Positions 462 through 34,940 of a DNA stretch of 35,286 nt are shown here, piece by piece. Within the stretch, counting starts at the first letter, position 1; each line of letters begins with the position of its first letter. The position numbers and the translations under genes are program-made. A model generated the notes under the pieces. The model saw only the letters and a program-made list of their open reading frames with translations, was not told the origin of the DNA and did no database searches. Source of the stretch: a virus; IMG/VR virus record IMGVR_UViG_3300037358_000198, positions 1 to 35,286 of that record; one strand, given 5' to 3'.

Positions 462-3008
462 CTACAAGTGGTCGCAAATGCCGCTCGTCCAGTGCGTGCA
501 GGTCGATCCGGTCACGCCCGAGACCGGAGTAACATCGGTTCCGTTGTAGGTCAGCGCGCCCGCCGCGAGAGATCCGCCGCCCAGATAGGACGCCATCTGC
601 GCTGGGGTCCAGTTCACATACCCGGTGGTTCCCCAGGCGATCGGCGAGTTGTTCGCGCTGTACCCGCCGTTCGACTCGAAGACGGCCAAGGTGGACGGCG
701 TGAAGTATTGCCAAGCGGTGCCGGTCCAGCCGAGAGGGACCGCGTTGGTCGACGGCGCGGTGAAGCTCGCCGCGCACTGGACCAGGACGTTCGCGCTCGA
801 ATTACACACCGCGCCGGCGGTCCCGTTGAAGGCGTTGAAGGTGATGCTGGTGTTCGAGAGAACGAGCCCCAGCGCCGGCGTGAACTGGATCGCGGGCCAT
901 CCGCTAAAGGACATCAGGCCCGCCGGTCCGCCGTACGCCAGCATGAAGAAACCGCCCAGGTCCATGGAAAAGAGGCTCGCGCCCGCGCCCGTGCCGGCGT
1001 CGAAAGCGGAGCCCGTGGCGACAGAGCACCCCGCGCAAAATCCCCCCGCCGTCTGATCGCTCGACGCCGCGTTGTTGGCCCACATCGCGAGCGCGCCTCC
1101 GGAGCCGAAGCCCGGATCGTGCAGGCGCTGCCACAGCCCGCCCTCGTCGGGCAGGCCGAAGGTGGTGGTGTTATTCGAGCCGCCGCTGAAGACGCTGAAT
1201 CCATACGTGGGCGAGTCGCCGCCGTTGTATCCCACCGTCAGGCCGCTTTCGGCCGAGACCGCGCCCAGCACCGCGTTACCGAGCATGTTTTGCAGGGCGC
1301 GGGTGTTGCCCCACGAGGAAACCGGGGCCTGGATGTCGGTGAGCAGCATGCCGTACGACTTCACGTAGTACATCTGGTATTGGCTGCCGGAGTAGGTGAC
1401 GCACACGTGGCCGCCGCCGATGACGATCGCGGGAGGCGATCCATACCCGCCGCCGCCGCTGGTGAGGGTCAGGGCCGTCACCACGCCGCCGGCCACGGTG
1501 GCGAGGGCGGCGCCGTTATTAAACGGGAACTCGACCAGAGCGCCGGACGTATAACCCGAGCCGCCCGCGGTCAGCGCCAGGGTGGCGATCACGCCGCCGG
1601 AGATAGTCGCCGTGGCCGTCGCTCCGGAGCCTGGTCCGGTGGGCGCGAGCGAAAGGTCGCAGTTATTGGATTCGTCCAGGACCAGGGCGCCCGGCCCGTT
1701 GCCGGATATGTTGCGGATATCTACCGCTCCCGAGCCGTTGAGTAAGTGCACCACGTTCTGCACGCCTCCGCCGCCCGTGAAGGACTGGCCCGTGACGTCC
1801 TCGACTTCCACCCCGCCGCCGCCGATCTTCACGCAGTCCGCGCCCGACGGATCGGCGGCCGACGCGGACGCGGGCTGGTAGGGGTCCTCGCAGTGGCCGT
1901 GCTTGGCGCTGAGGTTGTTTCCGCCGTCGAAGAAGACTCCCGCTCCGCCGTTGCCGTACTGGTCCGCGTAGTTGCTGGTGAGGGTGAACCCGTCCACCTG
2001 GAAACGCGAAATGCACTGGTAGCAGTGGAAGCCGTTCGATCCCGGATAGCCCGCGCCGCCGGCGACAAGCTCGTAAGCGCCCGAGTTCTGAATGCTGAAG
2101 GGGTTGGCCGGGTCGCCCCACTCGAACGCGTCTCCGCCGTGGTTGTAGCAGCCGACGTGAAAGATCCGGCTTTGCTCCTGAGCCCCGAGCGCTTGAATGC
2201 ACGTGGTCCCCGGGGGCGCTTCCGCGGTCAGGTGAGCGCCCGAAGAGTGGGCCACGGTGAACACGCCCGACACGTGGCCGGGGTCCATGATGGTGACCCG
2301 CACGATCTCGCAGGAACCGGTTGTAATGAGCGGAGAGCCCACCGGCGCCGCCGAACCGCAGGCGTAGGCGTATCCCGTCTGACCCGCCGGAGCGATGAGC
2401 AGCGCATTGACGACGGCCACCGTCTGAGGGCTCGCCGACGCGCTCACGTTCGCGCTGAAAGTGGTGGGCGTGCCGCTATTGGCCCCGAAGGCGATGCCCA
2501 TCTCCTCGATCCCCGCCGCGTCGATCGCGCTCCCGGTCGGCCCGATGCGGAACAGGATCGTGTTCGCGGGAATGGTCCAGGGGGCGCTGAAGCCGGAAGA
2601 ATGGAAGTCGTCTCCGACCAGGCGCGTGCCGTTGGGGATGTCGATGGGGTAAGTGCCGCTCGGATCGAGCGAGCCACATCCTTGCGGAACGCGCACCACG
2701 CCGCCGCCATTACCGTAGATCGGGCCGGTGGCCGCCGTGGTCTGCGCCGCGAAAGCCAGCGCCGCCTGCAACGCCCCGTCGTTGACGTACTCGCCGCCCG
2801 AGCACACGCCCACGTTCGATCCCGTGTTGGTGAAAGCGGCCAGGTCGATCTCGAAGCTGGTGGCTTCCTGCACGCTGAGCGAAGCGGCGTTGGCCGGCTG
2901 CACGATCATGCCGGAAGTGGCGGGCTGCACGAAGGTATTCACGCGGCTGGCTTCCGATTGAGCGAAGACCGCCAGGGGCAGAAGGAGGGAGAGAAGCAGT
3001 TTGGTCAC
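462..3008 (-). CDS. Tailspike-like right-handed beta-helix protein with N-terminal signal peptide
   Basis: 848 residues from a GTG start. The first 17 residues (VTKLLLSLLLPLAVFAQ) form a textbook Sec signal peptide: a lysine, an 11-residue leucine core and a cleavage-like FAQ. From about residue 55 the protein resembles pectate-lyase/tailspike N-terminal regions: a set-up region with NDGALQAALAFA, then GGGVVRVPQG and NGTRLVGDD, followed by short beta-rich glycine-rich coils. Two tandem glycine-rich inserts (GGSGYTSGALVEF and GGGGYGSPPAIVI) lie mid-protein. The C-terminus is a fibre-like domain. Expected role: receptor or capsule binding, possibly depolymerising, at the tail tip. The signal peptide is odd for a virion protein and is shared with two other tail genes here. 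It is the last large gene of the late operon and overlaps or abuts the GNAT-like gene. No catalytic residues can be assigned. Confidence 0.7.
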   Translation of the reverse strand: MTKLLLSLLLPLAVFAQSEASRVNTFVQPATSGMIVQPANAASLSVQEATSFEIDLAAFTNTGSNVGVCSGGEYVNDGALQAALAFAAQTTAATGPIYGNGGGVVRVPQGCGSLDPSGTYPIDIPNGTRLVGDDFHSSGFSAPWTIPANTILFRIGPTGSAIDAAGIEEMGIAFGANSGTPTTFSANVSASASPQTVAVVNALLIAPAGQTGYAYACGSAAPVGSPLITTGSCEIVRVTIMDPGHVSGVFTVAHSSGAHLTAEAPPGTTCIQALGAQEQSRIFHVGCYNHGGDAFEWGDPANPFSIQNSGAYELVAGGAGYPGSNGFHCYQCISRFQVDGFTLTSNYADQYGNGGAGVFFDGGNNLSAKHGHCEDPYQPASASAADPSGADCVKIGGGGVEVEDVTGQSFTGGGGVQNVVHLLNGSGAVDIRNISGNGPGALVLDESNNCDLSLAPTGPGSGATATATISGGVIATLALTAGGSGYTSGALVEFPFNNGAALATVAGGVVTALTLTSGGGGYGSPPAIVIGGGHVCVTYSGSQYQMYYVKSYGMLLTDIQAPVSSWGNTRALQNMLGNAVLGAVSAESGLTVGYNGGDSPTYGFSVFSGGSNNTTTFGLPDEGGLWQRLHDPGFGSGGALAMWANNAASSDQTAGGFCAGCSVATGSAFDAGTGAGASLFSMDLGGFFMLAYGGPAGLMSFSGWPAIQFTPALGLVLSNTSITFNAFNGTAGAVCNSSANVLVQCAASFTAPSTNAVPLGWTGTAWQYFTPSTLAVFESNGGYSANNSPIAWGTTGYVNWTPAQMASYLGGGSLAAGALTYNGTDVTPVSGVTGSTCTHWTSGICDHL

Positions 3009-3022
3009 ATACTGCGTTCGCC

Positions 3023-3038
3023 AATTATTTAAATAATT
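3023..3038. repeat. Perfect 16-bp all-A/T palindrome
   Basis: AATTATTTAAATAATT is its own reverse complement and lies between the stop of the 174-residue gene and the tailspike start, overlapping that stop codon. All-A/T stretches are rare in this GC-rich window. It may be an operator, a duplex-melting site or part of a promoter for the tailspike gene; no convincing -35/-10 pair was found beside it. Confidence 0.75.
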
Positions 3039-3561
3039 AAGCCGGAAAGCTGGTGAAGCTGCTCACGCCGCCCGGCCCGAGCACGATCTGAGGAGACGCG
3101 CCGATCGCGCGGAACTGGATCGGCACGCAAATCGCCTGCCCGCCCGTGAGGTCCCACTTGGTGGGATCGATGTTGGGATAGGCGTACCAGGTGCCCAGCG
3201 TGATCTGGACGCCGCCGCCCGCGGGCTGCACGATCCACAGCGCTCCCGCCGCATAGCCGGCGGCGTTGATGGGGTTCGCGATCACGAACGGTCCGCCCGC
3301 CGGAAGAACGATCTCGAAGTTAGTGCCTTTTGAGAAGTCGGGCGTGAAGGTCGTCACGGCGACGAGCGGCTTTACCCACACTCCCAGCACCGAAGCCGGG
3401 GGCGCGGCCGCCGCGCTCGAAGCGGAGCCGGTGGACGCGGGCGCCGGCGCCGCCGAACCGATGAGCAGTTGTATTGTGCGCAGCCTTTCGTTCAGCAGAG
3501 CCGGGGTGATGGCCGCGCCGCTCGGGATCTCAAGAGAAGTTCGCGCGCTGTTCGATGGCAT
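3037..3561 (-). CDS. Small tail/fibre-associated protein of unknown function
   Basis: 174 residues from ATG. The N-terminus (ALLNERLRTIQLLIGSA) is a short helix, followed by an alanine/proline/serine-rich linker (residues about 35-57) and a beta-rich C-terminal domain with repeated glycine-proline turns, ending VLGPGGVSSFTSFPA. This layout (helix, flexible linker, small beta domain) is typical of small virion decoration or fibre-accessory proteins, but I do not recognise a family. It lies between the giant tail protein and the tailspike. The 134-bp gap upstream is unusually long for this operon and contains the parS-like site. The ribosome-binding site before the ATG is weak. Confidence 0.6.
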   Translation of the reverse strand: MPSNSARTSLEIPSGAAITPALLNERLRTIQLLIGSAAPAPASTGSASSAAAAPPASVLGVWVKPLVAVTTFTPDFSKGTNFEIVLPAGGPFVIANPINAAGYAAGALWIVQPAGGGVQITLGTWYAYPNIDPTKWDLTGGQAICVPIQFRAIGASPQIVLGPGGVSSFTSFPA

Positions 3562-3586
3562 GTTAGAGTCTCATTTACTAAGTCGA

Positions 3587-3602
3587 TGTTTCACGTGAAA
3601 CA
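3587..3602. promoter_or_regulatory. parS: parS-like ParB-binding site, exact consensus match
   Basis: TGTTTCACGTGAAACA is a perfect 16-bp palindrome (18 bp with the flanking A and T) identical to the well-known chromosomal parS consensus bound by ParB/Spo0J. It lies in the 134-bp gap between the giant tail gene (3696-7787) and the 174-residue gene. A 16-bp exact match is not expected by chance in 35 kb. I saw no other full copy in the window and no parA or parB gene, so any ParB would come from the host or from outside the window. Its function in the phage is inference; it could also be the target of a phage regulator with the same specificity. Confidence 0.85.
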
Positions 3603-3641
3603 TGCGCTGCTATTGCTTTCTGCGTAAGTCGGGTACTTCAA

Positions 3642-3662
3642 AGGCTCAAGTTATCTGAGCCT
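3642..3662 (-). terminator. Hairpin after the giant tail gene (weak terminator candidate)
   Basis: AGGCTCA and TGAGCCT form 7-bp arms around a 7-nt loop in the gap downstream of the tail gene. On the minus strand the stem is followed only by TTTGAAG, so the U-tract is poor. It may act as a leaky terminator or processing site ahead of the last late genes. Confidence 0.35.
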
Positions 3663-3695
3663 GTATAAGTCAAGTGTGAAGGGGATGAAGAAGCT

Positions 3696-6600
3696 TCACG
3701 CCTCCCCTATCGGGATGTCCACCCACTCGAATTTATCCGTGGTGGGTTCCACGTTAAACTCTCCCCACGTCCACTGCGGGTCGGTGGGGCTCACGTTGAA
3801 ATCGGACCAGGCCCACACGGGGCTGGTGGGCTGCACCGGTAAATCGCTCCATTGGAACTCGGCCGGCGTGGGCTCGACCGGCAGCGGCTTCCACTCCGCG
3901 AGAGTCTGGCTCTCTTCCATCGGGAAGGCCGCCCAGCTCCAGGACGCCCCCGGTTCGTTCAAAGGCCGCATCCACAGCCGCAAGCCGTAAAGCCGCCCGC
4001 TCGAAGCGCCCGTGATCTCGACCCGCGCGAGACGCCCGCGGATGTTGATGGGCATGACAAATTCGAGCGTTTGCCGGAGACCTCCGGTATTCACCACCGT
4101 GGTGTACTGCGCGGCCATCGAACCGGTCTGGTTGGTGAAGAGTGTGAGAGTCAGAGGACCGTCTGTCTGGAAGTCGGCTTCCAGCTTCTTCACGGTCTTC
4201 ACCCTCTCGGTTCCGGCGTCCCAATCGAGGGTGCGGAAGGTATCGGAGACGTTGGCCGCGAGATAGCGCCCGATCTGCCGGCAGAAGGTCTGGCCCTGGT
4301 ACACCCGGAAATCCGCGTTGCTCGATAAGGTGACCCGGATCACGCGCCCCTCGGTGTCGCCGGCGATGCCGCCCGGCATCTCGACCGTGGCCCAGCTCCG
4401 CCCGCTCGTGCCCGTGGTGAGGATCGCGGTCCAGCGCAAAGTCAGCTTCTCGCCGGGGAGGTCGGTGTAGATCGCGCACTCGACCGGGTTCGGCGCGTCG
4501 AGCTCGAAACGGAGCTGGTCGACGACCACGTCCTTGCCGCCGGCGATGGTGACCACCGTCGAATCCCAGATCGCTCCGGCCTGGCCTTCGTAGGCTTCGA
4601 CGTACGTGCCGATCGGACGCCAATTAATCCTCGCGCCAAACAGTTTGAACGCGCCCGCGCCAGTCACCGTCACCCGCGCGAGACGGCCGAATAAGTACGG
4701 CGAATTCTCTGGAAGCGGCACGCTGAATTTCCTGCGGCCGCCCGTGGCCGGAACGTTCACCGTGAGCTGCGTGGTCATCGTGTCGCCGGGCAGATCGAGG
4801 AGTAAGTTCACGGTGATCTGCGCGTAGGCCCACAGGTCGAGCTCGATGTCGCGGATCTCCTTCGCGCTGCGCGTGCCGAGATCCAGCTCCGTCGTATCCC
4901 AGAAGCCGCCCTGCCCGGCTTCGCTCGAATCGAGGTATTCGCCGAACTGGCGCAGTTCGAGCCGCGCGCCGTACATGCGGAAAGCCGCGGATCCCGAGAT
5001 CAGGAGCCGCCACAAGCGGCCCTCGAGCTGAGGCAGCACCAGGTGCACCTTCTGCCGTCCGGAAGTCGCGAAGGTCTTGGTGGCCACCACCTGCATGACG
5101 AAGCCGGGGAAGTCCGACAGCACCTGCGCGGTCACGTTGCCCGTGGTCTCGATATCCATTTGCAGCTCGCGCGCCTCCTTCACCTTGGCCGAGCCGAAAT
5201 CCATCTCGCGCGAGTCGTAAGTCGCCCCGCCGGCGGATTCGACGGCCTCGATGTAAGCGCCCATCTCGATCACTTCGAGTCGCGCGTCATAGAGGATGTA
5301 TTGCTGCGTGCCGGCGAGCTTTAGCCGGAAGAGCCGCCCCTCGATCATGGGAGTAAGTCCCTGCGGTAAAGGCAGCGTCACGATCTGCCGCGCTCCGGAC
5401 GCGGGAATGGTCTGGGTGAAGGCCAGCGTCATCGTGCCCGAAGGCAGATCGGAATAGAGCTGGGCCGTGATCGCGCCGTCCGCCTCGATGTCGAACTGGA
5501 GGTTCTTGGCGCGCTTCACCGGGTCGCGGTACATGTCCGCCGGGAAGCGCTTCAGGTGGCTCATGTCCTGTTCGAGCGAGTCCCACACGTAGCCCGCCGC
5601 GGCTTCGTACGCTTCGACGAAGTTAGCCAAGGGGCGCACTAGGGCGCGCAGGCCGTAGAGCCTGAAAAGAGAGGTGGAATTGACGGCGAAGGACCACAGC
5701 CGCCCGGTCCACGTCTGCGTGGTGGGCAACTGGAACATGCGGCGTCCCGTCGATTGCGAAGCTACGAGGGTGTCCCGGGTCGCGATCTGGTTGCCGGGAA
5801 GGTCGCTCTGAATCGTCAGGGCGGCCGGGCCGTTCGAGCAGTCGATGTCGGCCTGGATTTCCTTGATCTGTTTCACGCGCGCGTGCCCCAGGTCGACCGG
5901 GATGGTGGCTACCGTCTCGGTGAGCCGCGCTTCGACGTAATAGCTGAAGTAAATCGAGTAGATTGTTACCTGGTTGCCGAAGGCCGAGCATTCGAGGCGC
6001 ACGGCCATATTGAAGGCCTCGCTGCCGTCGTCGCTCAGCGGGAAAGTAGTCTTGCCGCGCGCCGAGTTAGTGAGCGTTCCCAGGGTCAAAGGCACGCTCG
6101 CTCCGTTGTCGTAAACCACCTGCACCGTCACGCCCGCGCAGACGGCGGAGGTGCAGCCGGAGGCCTCGATCGTCACGTCGAGAAATACTTTCTGGTTGTC
6201 CGGCTTCCCGCAGTCCTCGTAGCGCGACTGGTACTCGAGCGAGATGGCGGTGTTCGAAAAAGCGCCGGTGGCGCCCACCGGCACGGCCGCGAACTGGTAG
6301 GCGTCCTCGAAGCCGCTCTCGAGTTGGCCGGCGATCGCGAGGCCGCCCACCCACATGGCGGGGTTCACGTAGAGGAACGAGGTGAAGCCGCCCGCGTATT
6401 CTCCCGGCTCGGTCGTCCACGTGTACCAGCGCTGGCTCGCGATGTGATAAATCAGGGCCGTCGAATTGCCGGTCTGCCCCACTTCCGCGTAGCTGAAGTA
6501 GATGCGGCCGTCGGCGTAACCGATGGCCGCGCGGTAAGCCTGCGAGTAGTCCATGGGCTGCACGGTGAGCGAAGCGGAGATCACGACGGGACTCGCGTTC

Positions 6601-7787
6601 GCGCCGCGGAAGATGGGATCGAGCGGCGTCGAGATCCTGGTCGCGGTGTCGCCGTCGAACGAGTAAAGGCCCTCGGTCCCGATCAGGTAATCGTATTGGC
6701 CGGCGCCGCACGCGCCGTTCACTCCGGTCGTGCCGGTGGACGCGTCCGAGCGCTGTAAGTAGCCCGTGATGGGGTCGCCGATCAGCCGCCAGATAGAGCG
6801 CTCCTTGTAGATCACGAGCATGCTGGCGTGCGCCACGCAGGTGAGAATCGCCTCCCCGTCGTCGCCCACGTCGAACCATTGGCCGGTGGTGAGCTGCGCG
6901 CCGGGGAAGTACTGCGGCTGGTTGGGGAGCGAATACCACATGCGGTTCACGCGCGGCGCGCCCAGCTGCGTTGCGTTCCACAGTAAGAAATAGCCAAGAT
7001 AAGGTCCCACGCATCCCGCCGCCGCGGGCGGCGGATCGTGATTGATGGGCATCGGAATCCCCAGCAGCGTGGCCGTCAGGTCGCTCATCGAATCGAGAAA
7101 TAGGAAGGTCACCAGGTCGTTGATGGAGCCCACCTGGTAGGCCTGGCCCAGCGTGCCGCCCGTGCGGTAGATATTGCGGCCCACGATCAGCGCGTTGGTG
7201 GTGAAGGTCGGGAACAACAGGTAGATGTCGCCCGCCACCATTTGGGACAAGCTGACGGGGCTCGGGTTCGATTCCGAGCCGTCCGCGTAGTAGAAGGTCC
7301 AGTACCACTGGTAAGTGCCCTGGAGGCCCGCGGTGGGGCCGCCGGGATCGGGAATGGCGGCGCCCGGCAGAATCGCGTTGGTGGGCGGCACGACTCCCCA
7401 CGCGTTGACGTTGGTTCCGTCGTCGCGGATCTGCGCGCCCTGATTCATGAACCACGAGTAGCCCGCGTAGGCGCAGCTTCCGATGGGGTTGCCGTCGAAG
7501 CCGGTCTGGATCGGCCCCACCTGATTCGCGCGGTAGAGGTGCGTTCCGCATCCGAAGTAGTAAGTGGACGCGCGCCGCGCCATAGTGTGCACGTACTGAC
7601 CGATGCCGCCCGCGTCCACCGCGCCCGGCCATGCGAGGCCGAGACCGCCGCGCCCCACCAGCGCGCCGTTCTGGTCCACGCGCCAGTTCTGCATCTGCGT
7701 GCCGTCCGCCTCGGGGATCTTGTCGCCCGGCGCCAGTAAGTTCAGCGAGCCCGAGAGCACGCGCTTTGATTCGCGCATGTAACTCAC
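3696..7787 (-). CDS. Giant modular tail protein (1363 residues) with six tandem jelly-roll-like modules
   Basis: The largest gene in the window. It starts at a GTG directly after the preceding stop (an ATG three codons in is an alternative). Residues about 1-600 look like a beta-propeller or tail-tube/hub domain (LNLLAPGDKIPEADGTQMQN, ADGSESNPSPVS, MWYSLPNQP, IYKERSIWRLIGDP), resembling large proteins encoded beside podovirus tail adaptors. From about residue 620, six modules of about 100-110 residues follow, each with D(L/F)PG, a GR..R segment and an ending such as F.(L/M)YGAR...R..G.Y.EA.E....WD. The last 80 residues hold short tryptophan repeats (QWSDLPVQPTSP, WAWSDFNVSPTDP, WTWGEFNVEPTTD). 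It probably forms the tail hub or needle and displays binding modules. The assignment rests on position, size and repeats, not on a recognised family. Confidence 0.7.
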   Translation of the reverse strand: MSYMRESKRVLSGSLNLLAPGDKIPEADGTQMQNWRVDQNGALVGRGGLGLAWPGAVDAGGIGQYVHTMARRASTYYFGCGTHLYRANQVGPIQTGFDGNPIGSCAYAGYSWFMNQGAQIRDDGTNVNAWGVVPPTNAILPGAAIPDPGGPTAGLQGTYQWYWTFYYADGSESNPSPVSLSQMVAGDIYLLFPTFTTNALIVGRNIYRTGGTLGQAYQVGSINDLVTFLFLDSMSDLTATLLGIPMPINHDPPPAAAGCVGPYLGYFLLWNATQLGAPRVNRMWYSLPNQPQYFPGAQLTTGQWFDVGDDGEAILTCVAHASMLVIYKERSIWRLIGDPITGYLQRSDASTGTTGVNGACGAGQYDYLIGTEGLYSFDGDTATRISTPLDPIFRGANASPVVISASLTVQPMDYSQAYRAAIGYADGRIYFSYAEVGQTGNSTALIYHIASQRWYTWTTEPGEYAGGFTSFLYVNPAMWVGGLAIAGQLESGFEDAYQFAAVPVGATGAFSNTAISLEYQSRYEDCGKPDNQKVFLDVTIEASGCTSAVCAGVTVQVVYDNGASVPLTLGTLTNSARGKTTFPLSDDGSEAFNMAVRLECSAFGNQVTIYSIYFSYYVEARLTETVATIPVDLGHARVKQIKEIQADIDCSNGPAALTIQSDLPGNQIATRDTLVASQSTGRRMFQLPTTQTWTGRLWSFAVNSTSLFRLYGLRALVRPLANFVEAYEAAAGYVWDSLEQDMSHLKRFPADMYRDPVKRAKNLQFDIEADGAITAQLYSDLPSGTMTLAFTQTIPASGARQIVTLPLPQGLTPMIEGRLFRLKLAGTQQYILYDARLEVIEMGAYIEAVESAGGATYDSREMDFGSAKVKEARELQMDIETTGNVTAQVLSDFPGFVMQVVATKTFATSGRQKVHLVLPQLEGRLWRLLISGSAAFRMYGARLELRQFGEYLDSSEAGQGGFWDTTELDLGTRSAKEIRDIELDLWAYAQITVNLLLDLPGDTMTTQLTVNVPATGGRRKFSVPLPENSPYLFGRLARVTVTGAGAFKLFGARINWRPIGTYVEAYEGQAGAIWDSTVVTIAGGKDVVVDQLRFELDAPNPVECAIYTDLPGEKLTLRWTAILTTGTSGRSWATVEMPGGIAGDTEGRVIRVTLSSNADFRVYQGQTFCRQIGRYLAANVSDTFRTLDWDAGTERVKTVKKLEADFQTDGPLTLTLFTNQTGSMAAQYTTVVNTGGLRQTLEFVMPINIRGRLARVEITGASSGRLYGLRLWMRPLNEPGASWSWAAFPMEESQTLAEWKPLPVEPTPAEFQWSDLPVQPTSPVWAWSDFNVSPTDPQWTWGEFNVEPTTDKFEWVDIPIGEA
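3970..5930 (-). repeat. Six tandem ~100-110-residue protein modules in the tail gene
   Basis: The encoded modules share anchors at similar spacing: a WDS/WDT/YDS entry, VK.(I/L)+E(I/L)Q.DI, a D(L/F)PG loop, GR.(W/F)R and a (Y/F)GAR/YGLR exit. Nucleotide identity is low, so these are old, diverged duplications rather than recent DNA repeats. The boundaries are approximate. Confidence 0.7.
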
Positions 7788-10012: not shown

Positions 10013-10074
10013 GCCCGTTGCTTCGCCCGCGGCGTGTTAGAATTTTCCCGCGTGGAGAGCCCTCGCAGGGATGT

Positions 10075-10134
10075 GGGGGGGGGGTGTTCTCCGTTCGCCC
10101 CGCCGGGAAGCGTTTTCTCCGTTCGCCCGGCGGG
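10075..10134 (-). terminator. G-run and duplicated GC-rich hairpin element between virion genes
   Basis: The gap holds two copies of TTCTCCGTTCGCCC (10087-10100 and 10115-10128), each beside a GC block. CCCGCCGGG (10099-10107) and CCCGGCGGG (10126-10134) are perfect 9-bp inverted arms. A run of ten G (10075-10084) follows on the plus-strand side. The element could be a leaky terminator or an RNA-processing hairpin separating two late genes. There is no U-tract on the minus-strand transcript, so intrinsic termination is doubtful. Confidence 0.45.
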
Positions 10135-10135
10135 A

Positions 10136-11786: not shown

Positions 11787-13390
11787 TTCATCCGCCCGCT
11801 TGTTTTGAGATTCTGGAGCGTCTCGCCGCCGCCCGCCAGCCAGTTACCCGCGTAGTTGGTCTGCCAGACGATCACTTCGGAGTAGTTCTGCGACTGCGCT
11901 CCGCTATCGTGCTGCGAGCTTTGAATGTCCGCCACACCCCACTGGCCGTTGAAGCTCGAATGCGAGAAGCCGCCGTAATAGGCGGGGAAAACGCCCGAGA
12001 CGCCGGGGAACCATGCGAGTTCCCACGCCGTACCCCGCGTCTGCTGGTCGGTCATCCGCGCCCAGCTCACGCCGTCCAGGAGGTTGAAGATACTGAACTC
12101 GGTGAGTTGGTGCAGCGTACAGCCTCCGAAGGGCGAGGACTGAGCCACGCAATCGTCCACCGTCGCCGGCGGAATGAAGTGATTCGACTGGACGTACATC
12201 ATCTGCCCGTTTCTCGAGATCTCGAACTCCTCGTAGCAGGTGTTATTGCCGTTGGGGCTGAGGCAGTTGGTGAGCGCGTTCGTTCCGGTCGTCGGAATCA
12301 CCGCCGTGTAACTCGCCGGCGGATTGATCATTTTCACGCTCGCGCCGAGCGGCGGGCTAGTCATCGTGAAGCTCATCGAGCCCGAGACTTCGACGCCGTC
12401 CTGATGCACCCCCAGCCCTAAGTTTTCGCAGGTGACCGCGCCCGTCGTGTAAGTGTCGAACTGCGGGATCTGGTTGGCCTGGGTGTACATGGTCAGCGTG
12501 CCGTTGGGGTTCAGGACCACGCTCGAAGCCTTGTAGTAAACGTCGCAAGGCCCGTCGCTGATGGCCGTCGCGTGCGCGGCCAGCATGGTCTCAAAGGCCG
12601 CAGTCTGGGGACACCAGGCCGTGTCGCTCACGATCGCCGGAATGCCGCCCGTTCCGCCGGTCCAGTTCACCAGGGCGAAGTGCTCGACCCAGGGGATGAT
12701 GTAACTCGACGAATAGGTCGCGCACGCGGCGGGAATCGTGACGGGATTCCTCTCGGTCCAGTAAACGTAAGTGCCCGCCGTCCAGCCGCCCGTGGCGGTG
12801 GCGAGGGTGAAGGTGTGCGCGTCGATCGACGACCCGCCCGTCGTGTTCAAATTACTGATCACGCCGCAGCCGTAAGTGCCGGTTCCGCCGGTGCAGGCGG
12901 TGGAAGTTCCATTGCCGATCGAGGTGATGCTGTTGGCGAGAACGATCTGGTATCCCGTGCCCGGACCCGGAGTCGTCGCGCTGCTCACGTTGGCGGCCGT
13001 CTGCGCGGTGGCCACCAGGTGCGTGCCGTCCGTATCCGGATCGCCGATCGAGGCGTCGGCGTTCAGCACCGCGCTCGCGCCGTGCAGCGCGCTCGTCAAA
13101 TTCACCAGCGTGGGGGCGGTCGTCCAACTGCCGCCCGCTTGCGTGGCTTCCCATACGTCCCATTGCCCGGTCCCCCGGTAGTCGGGCTTGCCGCCGTTGG
13201 TGTACAGGCAGCTCGGAGGCTGCACGTTCACCGCGTTCGGGCTCAGCACCGTGGTCTGCGAATCGAAGATAATGTGCGTCGAGTCCACCCACGAGGCCCG
13301 TGCGCCACACGAGGAGATCACCGTGCCCGTGGTGGGAATAATCTGGGCCGCGAGAGGCAGCGCCGCGAGAAACAGCAGAAGCGCGCGCAT
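11780..13390 (-). CDS. Exported-looking virion-cluster protein with signal peptide
   Basis: 536 residues. I chose the ATG at 13390 because it overlaps the upstream stop as TAATG and gives a classic signal peptide (MRALLLFLAALPLAAQ); the longer open frame upstream reads through another gene. The mature part is beta-rich with many cysteines (for example SCGARASW, PPSCLY, TACTGG, YGCGV), more than usual for phage cytoplasmic proteins and consistent with disulfides in an oxidising compartment. Segments such as QWDVWEATQAGG and FEISRNGQMMYVQSNHF suggest a propeller-like or adhesion fold, not identified. It lies between the tail fibre and an adaptor gene. The export signal is seen directly; a role as a receptor-binding or surface protein is inference. 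Confidence 0.65.
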   Translation of the reverse strand: MRALLLFLAALPLAAQIIPTTGTVISSCGARASWVDSTHIIFDSQTTVLSPNAVNVQPPSCLYTNGGKPDYRGTGQWDVWEATQAGGSWTTAPTLVNLTSALHGASAVLNADASIGDPDTDGTHLVATAQTAANVSSATTPGPGTGYQIVLANSITSIGNGTSTACTGGTGTYGCGVISNLNTTGGSSIDAHTFTLATATGGWTAGTYVYWTERNPVTIPAACATYSSSYIIPWVEHFALVNWTGGTGGIPAIVSDTAWCPQTAAFETMLAAHATAISDGPCDVYYKASSVVLNPNGTLTMYTQANQIPQFDTYTTGAVTCENLGLGVHQDGVEVSGSMSFTMTSPPLGASVKMINPPASYTAVIPTTGTNALTNCLSPNGNNTCYEEFEISRNGQMMYVQSNHFIPPATVDDCVAQSSPFGGCTLHQLTEFSIFNLLDGVSWARMTDQQTRGTAWELAWFPGVSGVFPAYYGGFSHSSFNGQWGVADIQSSQHDSGAQSQNYSEVIVWQTNYAGNWLAGGGETLQNLKTSGRMKW

Positions 13391-25590: not shown

Positions 25591-27324
25591 TCAGCGGCGC
25601 TGTCTTCCCCTGCCGGGCCGTTCGCCGCCGCCGCCGTACTTTTGCACCTCGGGCCGCCCCTGGAACTCGCCGCGCACGGCCGCGGGCCGCGGCATCTCCG
25701 CGATCCCCACCAGGGCCAGACCCAGCCCGATCACGCAATCATCGTGGCAGCCCGACTGCGCTTCGGCTTTGCCGGTGGTCTTGATCACGAACGTATTCAA
25801 TTCGCTGATGGTGATCGGATCGTGGAGGATGATCGAGCCCTCGCGCAGCGCGGCGTCGACTTTGCTCACGAGCTGGGGCCGCGTGACCTGGGTCGTCTTC
25901 CAGCCGATGAGATCCGAGCGCGTCCAGGGATCGCCGTCGGGTGCGTCCCTGCGGTGGTATATGAGTCCCGAGGGATAGCCCGCGCGCAGCAGCTCGTCGA
26001 TGCACGCGAGGCCCGGACCGTTGGCCTCGGGCACCACGCCGGCGTTGTTGTACCAGCGGGCTAAAGCGTCGAGGGTGCGCCCGAACTCGGCCGGCTGCAC
26101 TCTCCCGCGCCACACAGCCACCTGCTCGCCAGTATCGCGGTCGAAGACGGGCGCAACGGAAAAATCGGCGTCGGGATTGCCATCGCCCATATTGGCGTCG
26201 ATGCCCTCGCTCACGTCCGCGCCGATAACGTAATGCCGCCCGGGCTGCGGTCTGCGGTAGATTACCAGCGCGCCCCGGTCTTTCTGGCCGAAGACGATCC
26301 TGCGCTCGCCACCGTAAGTCACGATCTCGAGATCCCCGCGCGGGGCGTCGGCGACGGCTGAATGCCGCGCGATCGCGCGCAGGTCGAAGCGGGGCCGGCC
26401 ACTCGAAATGAAAGCCTGCTCGGGGTTTGAGGGATACTCCTGGTGGAATCGATCAATCGAGCCCTCGCAGTTATTTTCGATGCACCAGCGGCGCCACTGG
26501 AGCTGCTCGAGCCGCAGCGAGTAGCGGCCCATCTCCTCGCGCTCTTCTTCGTCTAGCGAGTGCTGGAAGCGGTCGCGCGGCAGCACCAGTGGCATCGAGT
26601 ACTCGGGTTCTTCCCACCACGCAAAAAACACGCCCACGAAATCGGACTCGGTGTTGGCCGGGTCCATGACGCGCTGCCAGAGCTTGTGGAAGGGATTGCC
26701 GAGCCCGTTGGCGGTCGACGGAATGATTATGTTCGTGTCCGGATCGTTGGGCACAGCCTGCATGATGCCCGTCATGAGCGTGGCCGAATCCTCGTAGAAG
26801 GCGAACTCGTCGAGCTGTAAATTGTGGAGCGTGAAGCTGCGGCCGAAGTGCGCGGAGCTTGCGGATTTGACCTTGATCCATGAGCCGTTGTCCCAGCTCA
26901 AGGCGTCTTCCGCGTCTTTGATCCGCTTCGGGATTTTGATGATTCCGCCGAACCTCTTGTAGTTGTCGGCGAAGATGCGGTAGCGCTGAAACACGCCGAT
27001 GGCGGCCTCTTCGTTGTGCGCGATGACGGCCGTGTGCCGTCCCGCGCGGAAAGCCGTGTCCTGGAAAAACTGGGACGCCACGCCGGTCGTGACCTTGACC
27101 TGGCGCGCTTTCAGGTTCACGATGCGGACCGCGCGCTCGGCCTCCCGCTGCTTTTTGACGGCGGCGTTCAGCCGGCGCTGCGCCGCGCTCGGCTCCATAG
27201 TCACCAGCAGCCCGCCCACCTTGAGCGAGACCATGAGCGACTGCCGGCAGAACTCGCCGTGATCCGAGAATGCCTCGTAGATGCGGCGCTGGTCGGGCTC
27301 CGCAGTGGTACTAAGTAAGGCCAT
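25591..27324 (-). CDS. terL: Terminase large subunit (packaging ATPase-nuclease)
   Basis: 577 residues. The ATPase domain has a deviant Walker A at residues 71-80 (LKARQVKVTT, with R74/Q75 as in many phage TerL), Walker B at about 169-173 (LQLDE, D172/E173) and a coupling motif STANG at 203-207. The nuclease domain has the RNase H-like acidic set: IGADVSEG (D370), the PEANGPG segment (E433) and HDDCVIGLGLA (D528/D529). Length is normal for the family. The start codon overlaps the end of the sigma-factor gene by 14 bp, so the two are coupled. It packages DNA into the head through the portal, using ATP, and cuts the concatemer. The C-terminal tail is rich in Gly and Arg. Confidence 0.92.
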   Translation of the reverse strand: MALLSTTAEPDQRRIYEAFSDHGEFCRQSLMVSLKVGGLLVTMEPSAAQRRLNAAVKKQREAERAVRIVNLKARQVKVTTGVASQFFQDTAFRAGRHTAVIAHNEEAAIGVFQRYRIFADNYKRFGGIIKIPKRIKDAEDALSWDNGSWIKVKSASSAHFGRSFTLHNLQLDEFAFYEDSATLMTGIMQAVPNDPDTNIIIPSTANGLGNPFHKLWQRVMDPANTESDFVGVFFAWWEEPEYSMPLVLPRDRFQHSLDEEEREEMGRYSLRLEQLQWRRWCIENNCEGSIDRFHQEYPSNPEQAFISSGRPRFDLRAIARHSAVADAPRGDLEIVTYGGERRIVFGQKDRGALVIYRRPQPGRHYVIGADVSEGIDANMGDGNPDADFSVAPVFDRDTGEQVAVWRGRVQPAEFGRTLDALARWYNNAGVVPEANGPGLACIDELLRAGYPSGLIYHRRDAPDGDPWTRSDLIGWKTTQVTRPQLVSKVDAALREGSIILHDPITISELNTFVIKTTGKAEAQSGCHDDCVIGLGLALVGIAEMPRPAAVRGEFQGRPEVQKYGGGGERPGRGRQRR

Positions 27325-27904
27325 CGATCCCGACGCGCCTCAGCAGCACGCGCATCTTCGCGTGGCCGCTTTCCGCCTGGCGGAACGCCCAGGTCGTGGA
27401 TCTCGACCGCGACATCCCGATGCGCGAATACTGCATATCGTGCAGCGCGTGCTGCACCACGGCGTGGCGCTCATCATCGGTGAGATCGCGCATCAGCCGC
27501 GAGAGGTGCCCGCGCACCTCGTTGCGCAGCGCCACGCCCATGGTGGGGTGATTCCACTCGTCGCGGAGAATGGCCTTGCTTTGATCGTGGAGCGGGCCCG
27601 GCGCTTCATCCGCCTTCTCGATATCCAATTCCTCGTGCAGCTCGTAGTGGTAGTTCTTCCGCCGGTGCGCGTCGTATATCGCGCCCAGAATCCGCTTCGA
27701 GGCGTAACTCGAGAACTTGATTCCGCGCGCGGGATCGAATCTCGAAGCGGCCTGCATCAGGCCGATGCGCCCGGTCTGGATCAGGTCGTCGATGTCGAGC
27801 CAGCGGGGCAGCCGCTGCGCCGCGCGCCTCGCCAGCGCGTCCACCAGCGGCAGGTGGTCTAGAACCAGCTGTTGGGCGGCTAGATGGTCCAGGACGGCGC
27901 TCAC
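27311..27904 (-). CDS. Phage-encoded sigma factor (sigma70 region 2 plus region 4-like)
   Basis: 197 residues from a GTG that overlaps the small-terminase-like stop (GTGA). Residues 12-85 are a clear sigma region 2: VLDHLPLVDALARRAAQRL, then DIDDLIQTGRIGLMQAASRF, DPARGIKFSSYASKRI and LGAIYDAHRRKNY, close to region 2 of group 3 (FliA/WhiG/SigB-like) sigma factors. The C-terminal part (LTDDERHAVV, then IGMSRSRST) is a shortened region 4-like HTH for -35 binding. Region 1 is absent and region 3 is small or missing. It is probably a late-transcription sigma factor for the structural operon, or an anti-host factor. Its position between the small-terminase-like gene and terL is unusual. The promoter it would use is not known from this sequence. 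Confidence 0.85.
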   Translation of the reverse strand: MSAVLDHLAAQQLVLDHLPLVDALARRAAQRLPRWLDIDDLIQTGRIGLMQAASRFDPARGIKFSSYASKRILGAIYDAHRRKNYHYELHEELDIEKADEAPGPLHDQSKAILRDEWNHPTMGVALRNEVRGHLSRLMRDLTDDERHAVVQHALHDMQYSRIGMSRSRSTTWAFRQAESGHAKMRVLLRRVGIDGLT

Positions 27905-28443
27905 CCGCCCCCCGTTTTGCTCACCGTTGTGCGCCGATACATCACCATGAATTCCTCCCACGTCACCCCCACCATCGAGTCGCTTGCACGCTCGGGCTGC
28001 AGCTGCCCCGTCATGCGCGCCATGAGCGAAATGTTCTTGCGGCACTCGGCCAGCGCGCGCAGCGCGTCATGCGGAGATTGCCACCCGAGCTTCGCTATTT
28101 GCCCCGTTTCATCCATCGGTTGCACCGGCATGGGCATCGTCAGGGAGAGGATGTCGAGCGTTTTACCGTGCAATGCTTCGATTTCGGCGAGCAAGCGGCC
28201 ACTTAGTTCCTGCTTTTTTGCTTGAGCTAACTCCCGTAAGTCGTTTACAACGCACTTACTTACGTGCCTTTGTAAAGATTGGTGGCTGACTAGAAAGTGC
28301 TTCGCGGTGCTCCGCACCGAGTTACCGCGCGCGAGGGAGGCGGAGATATCAGCCGCGGCGGGGTTGGTGCAGATCGAGCAGGCTCTTGCCACACCACGGA
28401 TTTTGCACTCGGAATTGGGAAAAAAATAATAATCGGCCGACAA
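27901..28443 (-). CDS. Small-terminase-like DNA-binding protein
   Basis: 180 residues from a TTG start. The N-terminal part holds RACSICTNPAAADISASLAR, then GNSVRSTAKHFLVSHQSLQR and H, the pattern CSIC..P....I...L..G.S.R.IA..F.VS..SL.RH found in phage terminase-small-subunit-like and related DNA-binding proteins; C13/C22/C25/H60 could bind zinc. The rest is helical (KQELSGRLLAEIEALHGKTL, LGWQSPHDALRALAECRKNI). Its place directly upstream of the sigma factor and terL supports a packaging-recognition role. Start choice is uncertain: no convincing ribosome-binding site was seen, and a GTG within the N-terminus is an alternative. An inverted repeat inside the gene may be a packaging site. Confidence 0.6.
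   Translation of the reverse strand: MSADYYFFPNSECKIRGVARACSICTNPAAADISASLARGNSVRSTAKHFLVSHQSLQRHVSKCVVNDLRELAQAKKQELSGRLLAEIEALHGKTLDILSLTMPMPVQPMDETGQIAKLGWQSPHDALRALAECRKNISLMARMTGQLQPERASDSMVGVTWEEFMVMYRRTTVSKTGGG
28236..28264. repeat. Inverted repeat inside the small-terminase-like gene
   Basis: GTAAGTCGTT (28236-28245) pairs with AACG and ACTTAC (28249-28259) with one bulged base; overlapping CGTAAG/CTTACG arms (28235-28240 and 28259-28264) and a tandem ACTTACTTAC follow. Terminase-small genes in several phages carry the pac or cos recognition site, so this is a candidate. Nothing else in the sequence proves it. Confidence 0.4.
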
Positions 28444-31876: not shown

Positions 31877-32094
31877 CGGAATCCCTCGATAAATCGACGC
31901 GCCTCTGTCTCATTTCTCGTCGCGATCAGAACACCGAAGCCACCCATTCTTTCGGCGATTCCCCGAAGCTCCTCGTGTTTATCCAGATCGCACAGCATCG
32001 TCGTCACCGCGTTAACCACGTTGTAGTTCGGACCGTGCTCCAGGTGCTTCAGCGCGTCCGCCTTCGCCCAGGCCAAGTGCTCGTCGCGCGTCAT
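31873..32094 (-). CDS. Conserved small phage protein (MTRxEHLAWAK type)
   Basis: 73 residues. The opening MTRDEHLAWAKADALKHLE followed by AVTTMLCDLDKHEEL and an ending ARRFIEGF is a pattern I recognise from a widespread small phage protein in temperate phages of high-GC hosts (MTR.EHL.W.K.RAL......A...M..DL.KH.E ... RRFIEGF). The function is unknown. It is coupled by ATGA overlaps on both sides within the early operon. Confidence 0.72.
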   Translation of the reverse strand: MTRDEHLAWAKADALKHLEHGPNYNVVNAVTTMLCDLDKHEELRGIAERMGGFGVLIATRNETEARRFIEGFR

Positions 32095-32612
32095 CCCAGC
32101 GACTCCTCGACCTCGGGCCGGAACGCCTCCAGGTCTTCACGGTGCACGAAGTACTCTTTGCTCCAGCGGTGCGCCCGCAGCCGCCCGCTCTTGATCGCGT
32201 GCACCAGCAGCCGGCGCGGAAGCCCGCTCGCTTTTGCCGCCTGGTCGAGCGTGTAATTCATGGGCGGCGCCGCCGGCCGGATCGCCGCCGCGATGACATC
32301 GACCAGGGCCGGCACTTTCTGCGCCAGCCCCTCGGCCACCTCGGTCGAGATGGGCGGCGGCAGGATCATCGAATGCGAAGGCTCGCGGCTGCGCTTCTCC
32401 CGCTCCACATCCTCGCGGCTGATGATCGTCACCCGGCCTTCCGCGCTCTGCCGCTCGAGTTTCCGCAGCTTGCCCTCCGCGCACATGGTCTGGATCGTGC
32501 GCGTCGAGACTCCCAGGTAATCCGCGGCTTGCTGCTTGGTGAGCCAGTCCTCGCCGCGCGCGTCCAAAGCCCGCGCCTGCCCTTCGCTCAGCACTTCCGT
32601 TGGTGTTGCCAT
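32091..32612 (-). CDS. Double-HTH DNA-binding protein (excisionase/MerR-like)
   Basis: 173 residues with two HTH units: residues 22-70 (WLTKQQAADYLGVSTRTIQT, then GKLRKLERQSAEGRVTI) and 118-160 (TLDQAAKASGLPRRLLVHAI, then SGRLRAHRWSKEYFVHREDL). Each looks like a helix_turn_helix_17/excisionase-type module. Between them is an acidic helical linker. The protein could bind two operator half-sites or link replication and excision. The start follows the previous stop by 3 bp and a good AAGGGGGAATG site. It may regulate the early operon or act as the excisionase/lysogeny switch; the true role is unknown. Confidence 0.7.
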   Translation of the reverse strand: MATPTEVLSEGQARALDARGEDWLTKQQAADYLGVSTRTIQTMCAEGKLRKLERQSAEGRVTIISREDVEREKRSREPSHSMILPPPISTEVAEGLAQKVPALVDVIAAAIRPAAPPMNYTLDQAAKASGLPRRLLVHAIKSGRLRAHRWSKEYFVHREDLEAFRPEVEESLG

Positions 32613-32615
32613 TGC

Positions 32616-32846
32616 TCATTCCCCCTTGTCTATCAGCCATGACTTGAACCCCGATGGCGTCAGACTCTCCATCGGCACTTCGTACGCCCACGCCCGGATT
32701 ACGTGCAATACCTCGTCCTCCGGAAAACGCTCCCCCGCGATGGCGATCAGCGAATCCGGCATGGAGTCCTCGACCGGGATTCTGGCGTCCGACACGTCCT
32801 CCAGAATGGCCAGTATTCGAGCTCTGAGGGGCATAGGAGCGTTCAC
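32616..32846 (-). CDS. Small early phage protein
   Basis: 76 residues from the GTG that overlaps the upstream stop (GTGA). It is helical and acidic (LRARILAILEDVSDARIPVE, then FPEDEVLHVIRAWAYEVP, ending SGFKSWLIDKGE). A longer open frame upstream overlaps the hexapeptide gene and looks spurious. No known family. In the early operon it may be a regulator or replication accessory. Confidence 0.5.
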   Translation of the reverse strand: MNAPMPLRARILAILEDVSDARIPVEDSMPDSLIAIAGERFPEDEVLHVIRAWAYEVPMESLTPSGFKSWLIDKGE

Positions 32847-33409
32847 CGGGCGCTCCCTGGTGTCTGGAGACCCTCCGATCGCTCCTGGGGGCTCCTGGGG
32901 CCGATTTCGCCCTCCTCCGGATACGCGGCCATCCACGCTTCCGCGGCGTTCAAATAGCCGGTGTATTCGGCGATTTGCGCGGGGGTGTAGTTATTGGCTT
33001 TAGCCCTGCCCAGGACGCGCCACTCGGCGATCGTCCACTCTTCACATCCGCTGCGGAGGATGCCTTTTCGAGGGATGCAAAGTAGGCTTCTACTCCCGAC
33101 GATGTACAGGGGTGAGATCGAAAAACGAGCCCCCGCGCCGATCCTAGCCCGCGCGCCGATCTCGGCCCCATCGCCGATCCTGGCCCCATCGCCGATCCTG
33201 GCCCCATCGCCGATGCTGGCCCACTCGCCGATCACGGCCCCATCGCCGATCCTGGCCCACTCGCCGATCACGGCCCACTCGCCGATCACGGCCCCATCGC
33301 CGATCACGGCCCCATCGCCGATCACGGCCTCATGGCCGATCTCGGCCTCATGGCCGATCTCGGCCGACTTGGCTATTTTGGCCGAATTGGCTATTTTGGC
33401 CGAGATCAT
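32843..33409 (-). CDS. Hexapeptide-repeat (left-handed beta-helix) early phage protein
   Basis: 188 residues. Residues 4-93 are 15 near-perfect hexads of the type A-x-I-G-x-x (AVIGDG, AVIGEW, ARIGDG, AEIGHE), enough for about five coils of a left-handed parallel beta-helix, as in acyltransferases such as LpxA. After the helix, a conserved C-terminal region (SPLYIVGSRSLLCIPRKGIL, RSGCEEWTIAEWRVLG, then ANNYTPAQIAEYTGYLN) matches other phage hexapeptide-repeat proteins of the VGSR...GC...EEW...A..Y type. The function of this phage family is unknown. No acetyl-CoA site is evident. It is coupled by ATGA and GTGA overlaps to its neighbours. Confidence 0.85.
   Translation of the reverse strand: MISAKIANSAKIAKSAEIGHEAEIGHEAVIGDGAVIGDGAVIGEWAVIGEWARIGDGAVIGEWASIGDGARIGDGARIGDGAEIGARARIGAGARFSISPLYIVGSRSLLCIPRKGILRSGCEEWTIAEWRVLGRAKANNYTPAQIAEYTGYLNAAEAWMAAYPEEGEIGPRSPQERSEGLQTPGSAR
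33129..33400 (-). repeat. 18-bp tandem repeats encoding hexapeptide coils
   Basis: On the plus strand the unit reads gccgat followed by a two-base variable step and ggcc(c/t)(c/a)(a)(t/c)(c/g), repeated about 15 times with near-identity. The units are recent enough to recombine, so the coil number may vary between strains. Confidence 0.85.
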
Positions 33410-34431
33410 GAAACCCTCTTTCCCTTGCTAAGTATTTGCCCGATTTCGGATCGGAAGTCTTCGCCCGCTGCGGCCGCTTGGCTCTTCGGCTTGCCGCCGG
33501 AGAGCGCCTTGAGCATCAGCGCCAACCCATCCCCGCCGGCCTTGAACTCCTCGGGCGGAATGCCGTGCAGCCGCTCGGCGGCGATCACCGGAAACCAGCC
33601 GTACGAGTACGCCACCTGGCGCTCGGCGCGCAGCTCCAGGAGGAGGCCCTCCAACTCCCGAATCGAGCCCATCGCGAGGAAGAGTTTTACGAGTCTGGCG
33701 GGGGGCGCTTCTTGCGGCGGGATCCGGCACAAATGGGGCGTGCGGAGGTAGCCCTCCATGAGGCCGCGGGCTCTCTCGATCGCCTCCGGTCCGGCTTCGT
33801 CAGTTTTTGCTTTCCAGCGCAGCTGGATGGATTGATCAATCAGTTTTAAATCCAAATCCTGATCGGATTGCCGAGCGCGCGTAGCGCGCGTAGCGCGCGC
33901 GAGGGCTTCCCGCGCAAACTCTTTAGAATCAACGATTGAAAGGTCGAGAAGGCCCTGCGAGTGGTCGGATTTTCCGACCAGTGGGGAGCTCGAGTGGTCG
34001 GATTTTCCGACCAGTGGGGAGCGCGAGTGGTCGGATTTTCCGACCAGTGGGGAGCGCGAGTGGTCGGATTTTCCGACCAGTGGGGAGCGCGAGTGGTCGG
34101 ATTTTCCGACCAGTGGGGAGCTCGAGTGGTCGGATTTTCCGACCAGTGGGGACTCCGGGGGTTCGTATTCGAGAGTCCGCAGCCATTCGAGCCGGTACCA
34201 CGCCGCCGACCGCCTGGAGTCGCCCCGCTGCATCGTCACCAATCCCGCCCTTGCCAGAGCGCCCAGCGCCAATACAACCGTCTCTCTGCTCATACCGCTT
34301 CGCCTCACGATTTCGGACACGCTCATCTGCACCACCCAGCCGTCGATTTCACGTGCGGCGCTCGTCAGCAAGACCGCGACATACAACTCAGCCCCGCTCA
34401 AGCCGCGGGCAATTCGTTCCAGCCTGCTCAT
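33406..34431 (-). CDS. Replication-initiator-like winged-helix protein containing an iteron array
   Basis: 341 residues from the ATG at 34431, the only plausible start after the upstream gene (AAGGA is adjacent). Residues about 10-85 form a winged HTH (LSGAELYVAVLLTSAAREID, then SVSEIVRRSGMSRETVVLAL, GALARAGLVTMQRGDSRRSA). Residues 94-159 are six 11-residue repeats SPLVGKSDHS(S/R/Q) encoded by the 33-bp DNA repeats. The C-terminal 150 residues are helical and acidic/basic (LMEGYLRTPHLCRIPPQEAP, AERQVAYSYGWFPVIAAERL). This arrangement (DNA-binding domain, origin repeats within the gene, C-terminal interaction domain) parallels lambda O-type initiators. Its stop overlaps the next start (ATGA). 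The replication role is inferred from this architecture. Confidence 0.72.
   Translation of the reverse strand: MSRLERIARGLSGAELYVAVLLTSAAREIDGWVVQMSVSEIVRRSGMSRETVVLALGALARAGLVTMQRGDSRRSAAWYRLEWLRTLEYEPPESPLVGKSDHSSSPLVGKSDHSRSPLVGKSDHSRSPLVGKSDHSRSPLVGKSDHSSSPLVGKSDHSQGLLDLSIVDSKEFAREALARATRATRARQSDQDLDLKLIDQSIQLRWKAKTDEAGPEAIERARGLMEGYLRTPHLCRIPPQEAPPARLVKLFLAMGSIRELEGLLLELRAERQVAYSYGWFPVIAAERLHGIPPEEFKAGGDGLALMLKALSGGKPKSQAAAAGEDFRSEIGQILSKGKRVS
33962..34145. repeat. Six 33-bp iterons with perfect palindromes (candidate replication origin)
   Basis: TGGTCGGATTTTCCGACCA (perfect 8-bp arms around a 3-nt centre) recurs six times at exactly 33-bp spacing, starting at 33962, 33995, 34028, 34061, 34094 and 34127. 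The units are almost identical in between (agtggggagc[g/t]cgag). All lie inside the replication-initiator-like gene. Six evenly spaced palindromes, three helical turns apart, are typical of initiator-binding iterons. Confidence 0.9.
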
Positions 34432-34477
34432 TCCTTGCGCTAAAGTCAGCTCAGCCTGCTTTCCGCCCCGCCCGTTT

Positions 34478-34747
34478 TCATTGCACGCTCCCAAAAAACT
34501 CGTCATAGAAGTTGAAACCGGAGACCCGGACCGGCTTGACCATGAGGCTCGCGTCGGTGCCGCCGCGGAAGTAAGTGCCATCGGGAAACACGAGTTCCAC
34601 CATGTGGACCGAGTAGTCCTTGAGGACCTCCCGATGGCTGTGCACCAGCCGTTCAAGGAACGGACCCTCCGCCGGCGGCTCGGGGACCTCGACGGTCTCC
34701 CGGCACACGAGGACGCCGTCTCCGTAGAGTCGGCAGATTATGCGCAT
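34478..34747 (-). CDS. Small first gene of the early operon, unknown function
   Basis: 89 residues with a strong ribosome-binding site (GGAGGTGCGCG before the ATG). The product is beta-rich with basic and acidic patches (RIICRLYGDGVLVCRETVEV, then HSHREVLKDYSVHMVELVFP, DGTYFRGGTDASLM) and looks like a small alpha/beta protein. It is the first gene after the tRNA-side junction and is followed 46 bp later by the replication gene. No family recognised. Confidence 0.55.
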   Translation of the reverse strand: MRIICRLYGDGVLVCRETVEVPEPPAEGPFLERLVHSHREVLKDYSVHMVELVFPDGTYFRGGTDASLMVKPVRVSGFNFYDEFFGSVQ

Positions 34748-34818: not shown

Positions 34819-34866
34819 CGCCGTTTTAAGGGAAGGGTTGGAGGAGCTAAAGGCCAGAAAACTTAG

Positions 34867-34940
34867 TGGGCGCGATGGGACTCGAACCCATGACCATTTG
34901 CTTAGAAGGCAAATGCTCTATCCACCTGAGCTACGCGCCC
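34867..34940 (-). tRNA. tRNA-Arg, anticodon UCU
   Basis: On the minus strand a complete cloverleaf can be traced: acceptor GGGCGCG/CGCGCCC, D-arm, anticodon stem (ATTTGC/GCAAAT) with loop CTTCTAA giving anticodon TCT, and the T-arm GGGTTCGAGTCCC. The discriminator base is A and CCA is not encoded. Its 3' end points toward the phage genes, the usual orientation for a tRNA used as an attB site. Confidence 0.95.

Follow-up and report, generated by a model that had tools for sequence, protein, structure and literature searches.

ParB binds parS, closes as a clamp with CTP and slides along the DNA. For phage phi29, Spo0J of the Bacillus host reportedly brings the phage DNA into the spore (Meijer et al. 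2005, as cited in PMC9437464), and action of a host ParB on phage DNA has been reported only for this phage. The island SGI1 carries parS-like sites that bind the ParB of IncC plasmids and stabilise SGI1, and these parS mimics also destabilise the helper plasmid (PMC10954446). Our literature search found no paper on host ParB used by a phage; most subscription journals and preprints were outside its scope and a published survey may exist. The phi29/Spo0J precedent is tied to sporulation. The same kind of site is now found in phages whose hosts are not known to sporulate, which raises a general question: do phages without ParB borrow the host centromere system, and for what? This study was concerned with one perfect parS 16-mer in a tailed phage. 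The 16-mer probably serves as a site at which the ParB of the host, itself probably a member of the Acidobacteriota, is loaded, in the manner of phi29/Spo0J and SGI1/IncC.

The parS site, its setting and its lineage

The DNA analysed, referred to here as the window, is one linear IMG/VR contig (G000) of 35,286 bp. Its gene content is that of a tailed phage, with a terminase, major head protein, SU10-type adaptor, tail fibre, sigma factor and O-like replication protein. The genome is incomplete: terminal repeats are lacking, and the left end of the contig falls within an acetyltransferase-like gene. The sigma factor, a sigma-70 region 2 protein (27311-28045, minus strand), adjoins the terminase gene. 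A 188-aa hexapeptide-repeat protein (IGDGAVIG...; PF00132) is encoded at 32843-33409 on the minus strand, and its family is also present in phages (phrog_5353). The minus-strand ORF at 33406-34656, which has replication-initiator O-like matches, contains six tandem 33-bp repeats with TGGTCGGATTTTCCGACCA at 33924-34187, and these look like the iterons of a lambda-type origin. An excisionase-like HTH protein is encoded at 32091-32612, near a tRNA-Arg (tct) identified by ARAGORN and Rfam at 34866-34940 (minus strand), which may serve the phage as a tRNA or mark an attachment site. The first-pass annotation had spoken of related prophages. That the phage is itself a prophage is not evident, as no integrase was noticed, though the tRNA-Arg and the excisionase-like protein are present.

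The identification of the palindrome with the bacterial parS consensus, made in the same annotation, was borne out. The 16-mer TGTTTCACGTGAAACA at 3587-3602 is an exact match and is the sole match at three or fewer mismatches in the whole contig. Shuffled windows contained a mean of 0.07 matches at that threshold, and base composition predicts 1.3e-6 occurrences of the exact word per window. The full perfect palindrome around it is 18 bp (ATGTTTCACGTGAAACAT, 3586-3603) and extends one base past the 16-mer on each side.

The site lies in a gap of 134 bp (3562-3695) that separates two minus-strand genes. Upstream is the gene for a 1363-aa virion structural or tail-tip protein (3696-7787, minus strand; phrog_3287 and phrog_511). 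Downstream, in the same operon direction, is the gene for a 174-aa protein with no family match and no assigned function (3037-3561, minus strand), followed by the gene for an 848-aa probable virion protein (462-3008, minus strand; weak match to phrog_19630). The gap had been called unusually long. It is the longest in the structural block (462-21361), although only modestly so, since a gap of 123 bp is found at 10013-10135. It is also A+T-rich, with a GC fraction of 0.43 versus 0.64 for the whole window. No promoter-like or terminator-like sequence was found near parS in the gap, and RNA folding of the gap gave no significant structure (z -1.1).

The site is not shared by the relatives of this phage. 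The closest relative (L122/L123) is 68-71% identical in the tail protein and 79-80% in the adaptor. In L122 the gap at the syntenic place is about 15 bp (12104-12118) versus 134 bp in the window, and L122 contains no parS-like word within four mismatches. None of 10 related viral records, several of them short and not reaching the syntenic place, contained parS at two or fewer mismatches. A terminase search identified no close relative among viral contigs, and all named phages were below 60% identity. The first-pass annotation had proposed a search for the palindrome at the same position in related prophages and had taken its absence there as counting against its reading. It is absent from L122 and from all other relatives found, so position conservation is rejected and, as far as this lineage goes, the result counts against that reading. 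This pattern suggests that the window phage acquired the site or that its relatives lost it. In the related record L124, an opposite-strand gene for a D12-class DNA methyltransferase sits after the tail genes, which indicates that accessory DNA enters at that place.

Lone parS sites in other phages

The exact 16-mer was present in at least 120 IMG/VR stretches, versus 1 for the reversed palindrome of equal composition. In addition, 315 of 50,697 named phage records hold parS versus 0 and 4 for two scrambled palindromes, in a search that used the 18-bp core as query and counted matches of 16-18 bases. The carriers include phages of Gordonia, Microbacterium, Arthrobacter, Listeria, Bacillus, Lactobacillus, Butyrivibrio, Ruegeria and Clavibacter, as well as phi29-like phages, Microviridae and inoviruses. 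Fragmentary records, possibly of bacterial DNA, are numerous in the Listeria set (LM 4-11-1, LM 4-14-1); the Pecentumviruses, P100 for example, are sound. Contamination of IMG/VR by fragments of bacterial chromosomes was considered, and is possible for single contigs. It cannot account for the isolate genomes, the complete microviruses or the contigs with parS adjoining terL that carry the site. The Pseudomonas-type site TGTTCCACGTGGAACA was found in 58 records, among which Pseudomonas phages were the most frequent, versus none for the reversed palindrome used as its control. One of these carriers, Tunturi_2, infects an Acidobacteriota isolate. Ten are Klebsiella records, where the site lies in jumbo-phage coding sequence wherever annotation is available, and these do not fit host matching in any simple way. 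Lone parS sites span actinobacteriophages, Pseudomonas phages (with the Pseudomonas variant) and single-stranded DNA phages of 4-6 kb.

These counts bear on whether the palindrome has anything to do with ParB at all. It could be a chance occurrence, a captured fragment of host DNA, a hairpin or terminator, or the operator of some other protein. Its absence from relatives and the greater length of the gap in the window than in L122 would agree with such an origin, as would some Gordonia phages, in which the same core lies within longer, hairpin-like perfect palindromes of up to 36 bp with differing arms. In Woes (L149) and PatrickStar (L150) the cores are centred in perfect palindromes of 30-36 bp, the outer arms of which vary between copies and phages, and these may have a hairpin function in that clade. 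A long hairpin of this type is rejected for the window: its palindrome stops at 18 bp, and the gap has, as noted, no remarkable RNA fold. Given also the minute expectation for the exact word and a database-wide excess of parS more than 100-fold over control, an origin unrelated to ParB is very unlikely.

The position of parS in other phages was also analyzed. With simple ORF calls, the site was wholly intergenic in 43 of 121 contigs versus 8.7 expected; the nominal p value of 2e-19 is too small, as the contigs are not independent. In at least 17 contigs, which share 62-83% DNA identity, parS lies near the start of a terL gene. These belong to a marine family with a lone parS directly upstream of terL (L007, L019, L027, L029, L042, L066, L083, L093, L097, L101, L119, L120 and others). 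To guard against selection bias, 80 loci were fetched by TerL alone, regardless of parS. Among these, 14 of 39 close TerL relatives had parS at one or no mismatch 56-164 bp upstream of terL, and 3 of 38 distant relatives had it 54-168 bp upstream. Three control palindromes were never found upstream of terL in these loci, even at three mismatches. Presence or absence of parS varies between relatives that are 74-100% identical in TerL. The relatives without it contained no decayed remnant, the best matches, where listed, mostly having five to six mismatches. Thus parS is present or absent as a whole and patchily, as in the window lineage. A link between parS and gap length in this family was rejected, as the medians were no different (143.5 vs 180.5 bp).

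Isolates with parS in comparable gaps between structural genes are Butyrivibrio phage Arian, Voltaire and KPP25. The site follows the major tail protein in Arian, precedes it in Voltaire and adjoins the major structural protein in KPP25. Such positions raise the alternative that the site binds host ParB for local gene control, with clamps in the gap damping transcription of the last late genes, or insulating it, much as KorB does. KorB is a ParB-fold protein for which long-range silencing is reported (PMC11790492). Promoter-like positions are common, upstream of terL in the marine family and after the major tail protein in Arian and KPP25. However, the window site has no promoter-like or terminator-like sequence near it, and parS positions vary between phages, the microviruses and inoviruses having one to six copies in varied places. 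Local gene control as the main role is therefore considered unlikely.

Copy number is relevant to another proposal, in which the site acts as a decoy, titrating ParB or drawing SMC away, and so disturbs host segregation without placing the phage DNA. The dual effect of the SGI1 mimics on island and helper plasmid (PMC10954446) lends this some plausibility, and replicating phage DNA would multiply the decoy. Most carriers, the window phage included, have a single copy, however, which would be weak for titration early in infection, and a decoy is accordingly a distinctly unlikely explanation. Higher numbers do occur. For example, five exact copies lie within about 0.8-0.9 kb in each of L017 (2657-3444, upstream of terL) and L044 (10535-11462), neither record having a ParB. 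Bajarodino virus 3 (L158, PQ006097), an inovirus of 6.2 kb, has six exact copies and no ParB. Phi29 has four sites with one mismatch each (TGTTTCACGTGGAACA).

The partner protein and the probable host

No parA or parB had been seen in the first reading of the window, and profile searches agree: the contig, a fragment, has no match to ParB_N (PF02195) or to the ParA-type AAA_31 (PF13614). Since the contig is truncated at its left end, this negative result does not extend with certainty to the complete phage genome. The possession of both ParA and ParB that defines phage-plasmid ParABS systems of the P1/N15 type was likewise not seen in this fragment. Among 120 parS-bearing viral contigs, ParB_N exceeded the curated cut-off in 3, and about 97% had no ParB domain. 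Because many of these contigs are fragments, this count of ParB carriage is a lower bound; the complete small genomes are not affected by this. In the named phages, ParB_N was found in 2 of 19 in a first set (KaiHaiDragon and Warren, both weak matches) and in none of 5 in a second set (Pseudomonas/Tunturi). No ParB domain was found in the complete small genomes of B103, Voltaire, CUB-FM, Spiroplasma phage 4 (SpV4), phi-CA82 and bajarodino virus 3.

The partner could nevertheless be a ParB-like protein encoded in the missing part of the phage genome. The truncation of the contig leaves room for one, and in the related record G006 (L251, 1539-3029) one gene specifies a 496-aa protein that carries ParB_N and HTH_ParB domains. 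G006 itself, however, has no parS of the window type at two or fewer mismatches and no AAA_31 ParA, and most parS-bearing viruses, including the complete B103, Voltaire, CUB-FM and SpV4, are without a ParB domain. A phage-encoded partner thus appears highly improbable.

The only cellular relative of the phage adaptor lies on a contig in an Acidobacteria MAG (L133, 45% identity). This one MAG contig points to Acidobacteriota as the likely host phylum. In 149 sampled Acidobacteriota genomes, parS at one or no mismatch was present in 54, and the reversed palindrome in 3. The other 95 had no match at this threshold, which leaves room for a variant site in the true host. A strong ParB_N gene lay within 6 kb of parS on the same contig in 16 of 17 genomes tested. 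The loci that were read have the classic order mnmG-rsmG-parA-parB, in which parS falls at the end of rsmG or within that end, and the ParB proteins have ParB_N, HTH_ParB and ParB_C domains and match solved ParB and Spo0J chains with E values down to 1e-61. Because these sites lie beside the bacteria's own parA-parB, the phage 16-mer is the chromosomal parS of this phylum. The phage thus has a site of true chromosomal type, no detected ParA or ParB and a likely host phylum with the same site, which makes recruitment of host ParB, as proposed in the first-pass annotation, the natural reading; conservation of position was the part of that proposal that was not upheld.

Interpretation and comparison with known systems

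The 16-mer is exact, matched to the host type, mostly found without a phage ParB, enriched more than 100-fold over controls and repeatedly gained; loading of host ParB is the function that best explains it. Several points stand against this reading. First, the site is not shared by relatives of the phage. Secondly, it is present in a single copy. Third, the host phylum comes from one MAG contig, and 95 of the 149 Acidobacteriota genomes had no site at one or no mismatch. Fourth, the contig is a fragment. Lastly, a ParB-like protein is encoded in G006.

If host ParB does load at the site, ParB-CTP would recognise the 16-mer on infection, close into a clamp and slide over the adjacent phage DNA, and the phage genome would become a second partition complex. 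ParA, and possibly SMC loaded by ParB, would then tie the phage DNA to the nucleoid or cell pole, and, should lysis be delayed, the DNA would pass into daughter cells or resting cells. We infer that ParB binds the window site in vivo. The commonest benefit would be partition or retention of phage DNA where lysis is delayed, with dormancy, DNA condensation, late-gene control and interference with host segregation as further candidates. Phages probably borrow the segregation machinery of their hosts, to judge from the sites that they carry. We lean slightly towards the broader view that a lone, host-matched parS is a widespread means of using the ParB of the host chromosome, gained repeatedly across unrelated tailed phages, microviruses and inoviruses and extending beyond phi29, with the Acidobacteriota-type window phage as one recent gain. 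If this is true, host ParB could underlie the placement of phage DNA, its persistence in cells that grow slowly and superinfection incompatibility.

The locus can be compared with four kinds of known site. The parS of Acidobacteriota chromosomes is the same 16-mer; the chromosomal copies lie in or near rsmG-parA-parB, whereas the phage copy lies in the tail-gene operon. The phage-plasmids P1 and N15 and cyanophage Mic1 (PMC7156551) also have a partition site on a phage genome. However, they have their own ParA and ParB and their own site sequences, whereas in the window neither gene was detected and the site has the chromosomal consensus. SGI1 is similar in being a mobile element without ParAB that mimics the parS of another replicon, but it is a mobilisable island using a plasmid system, and the window is from a phage with a chromosomal site. 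Lastly, phi29 is, like the window phage, a phage without ParB that carries a chromosomal-type parS. It differs in having a sporulating Firmicute host and several imperfect sites, whereas the window phage has one perfect intergenic site and an apparently non-sporulating host.
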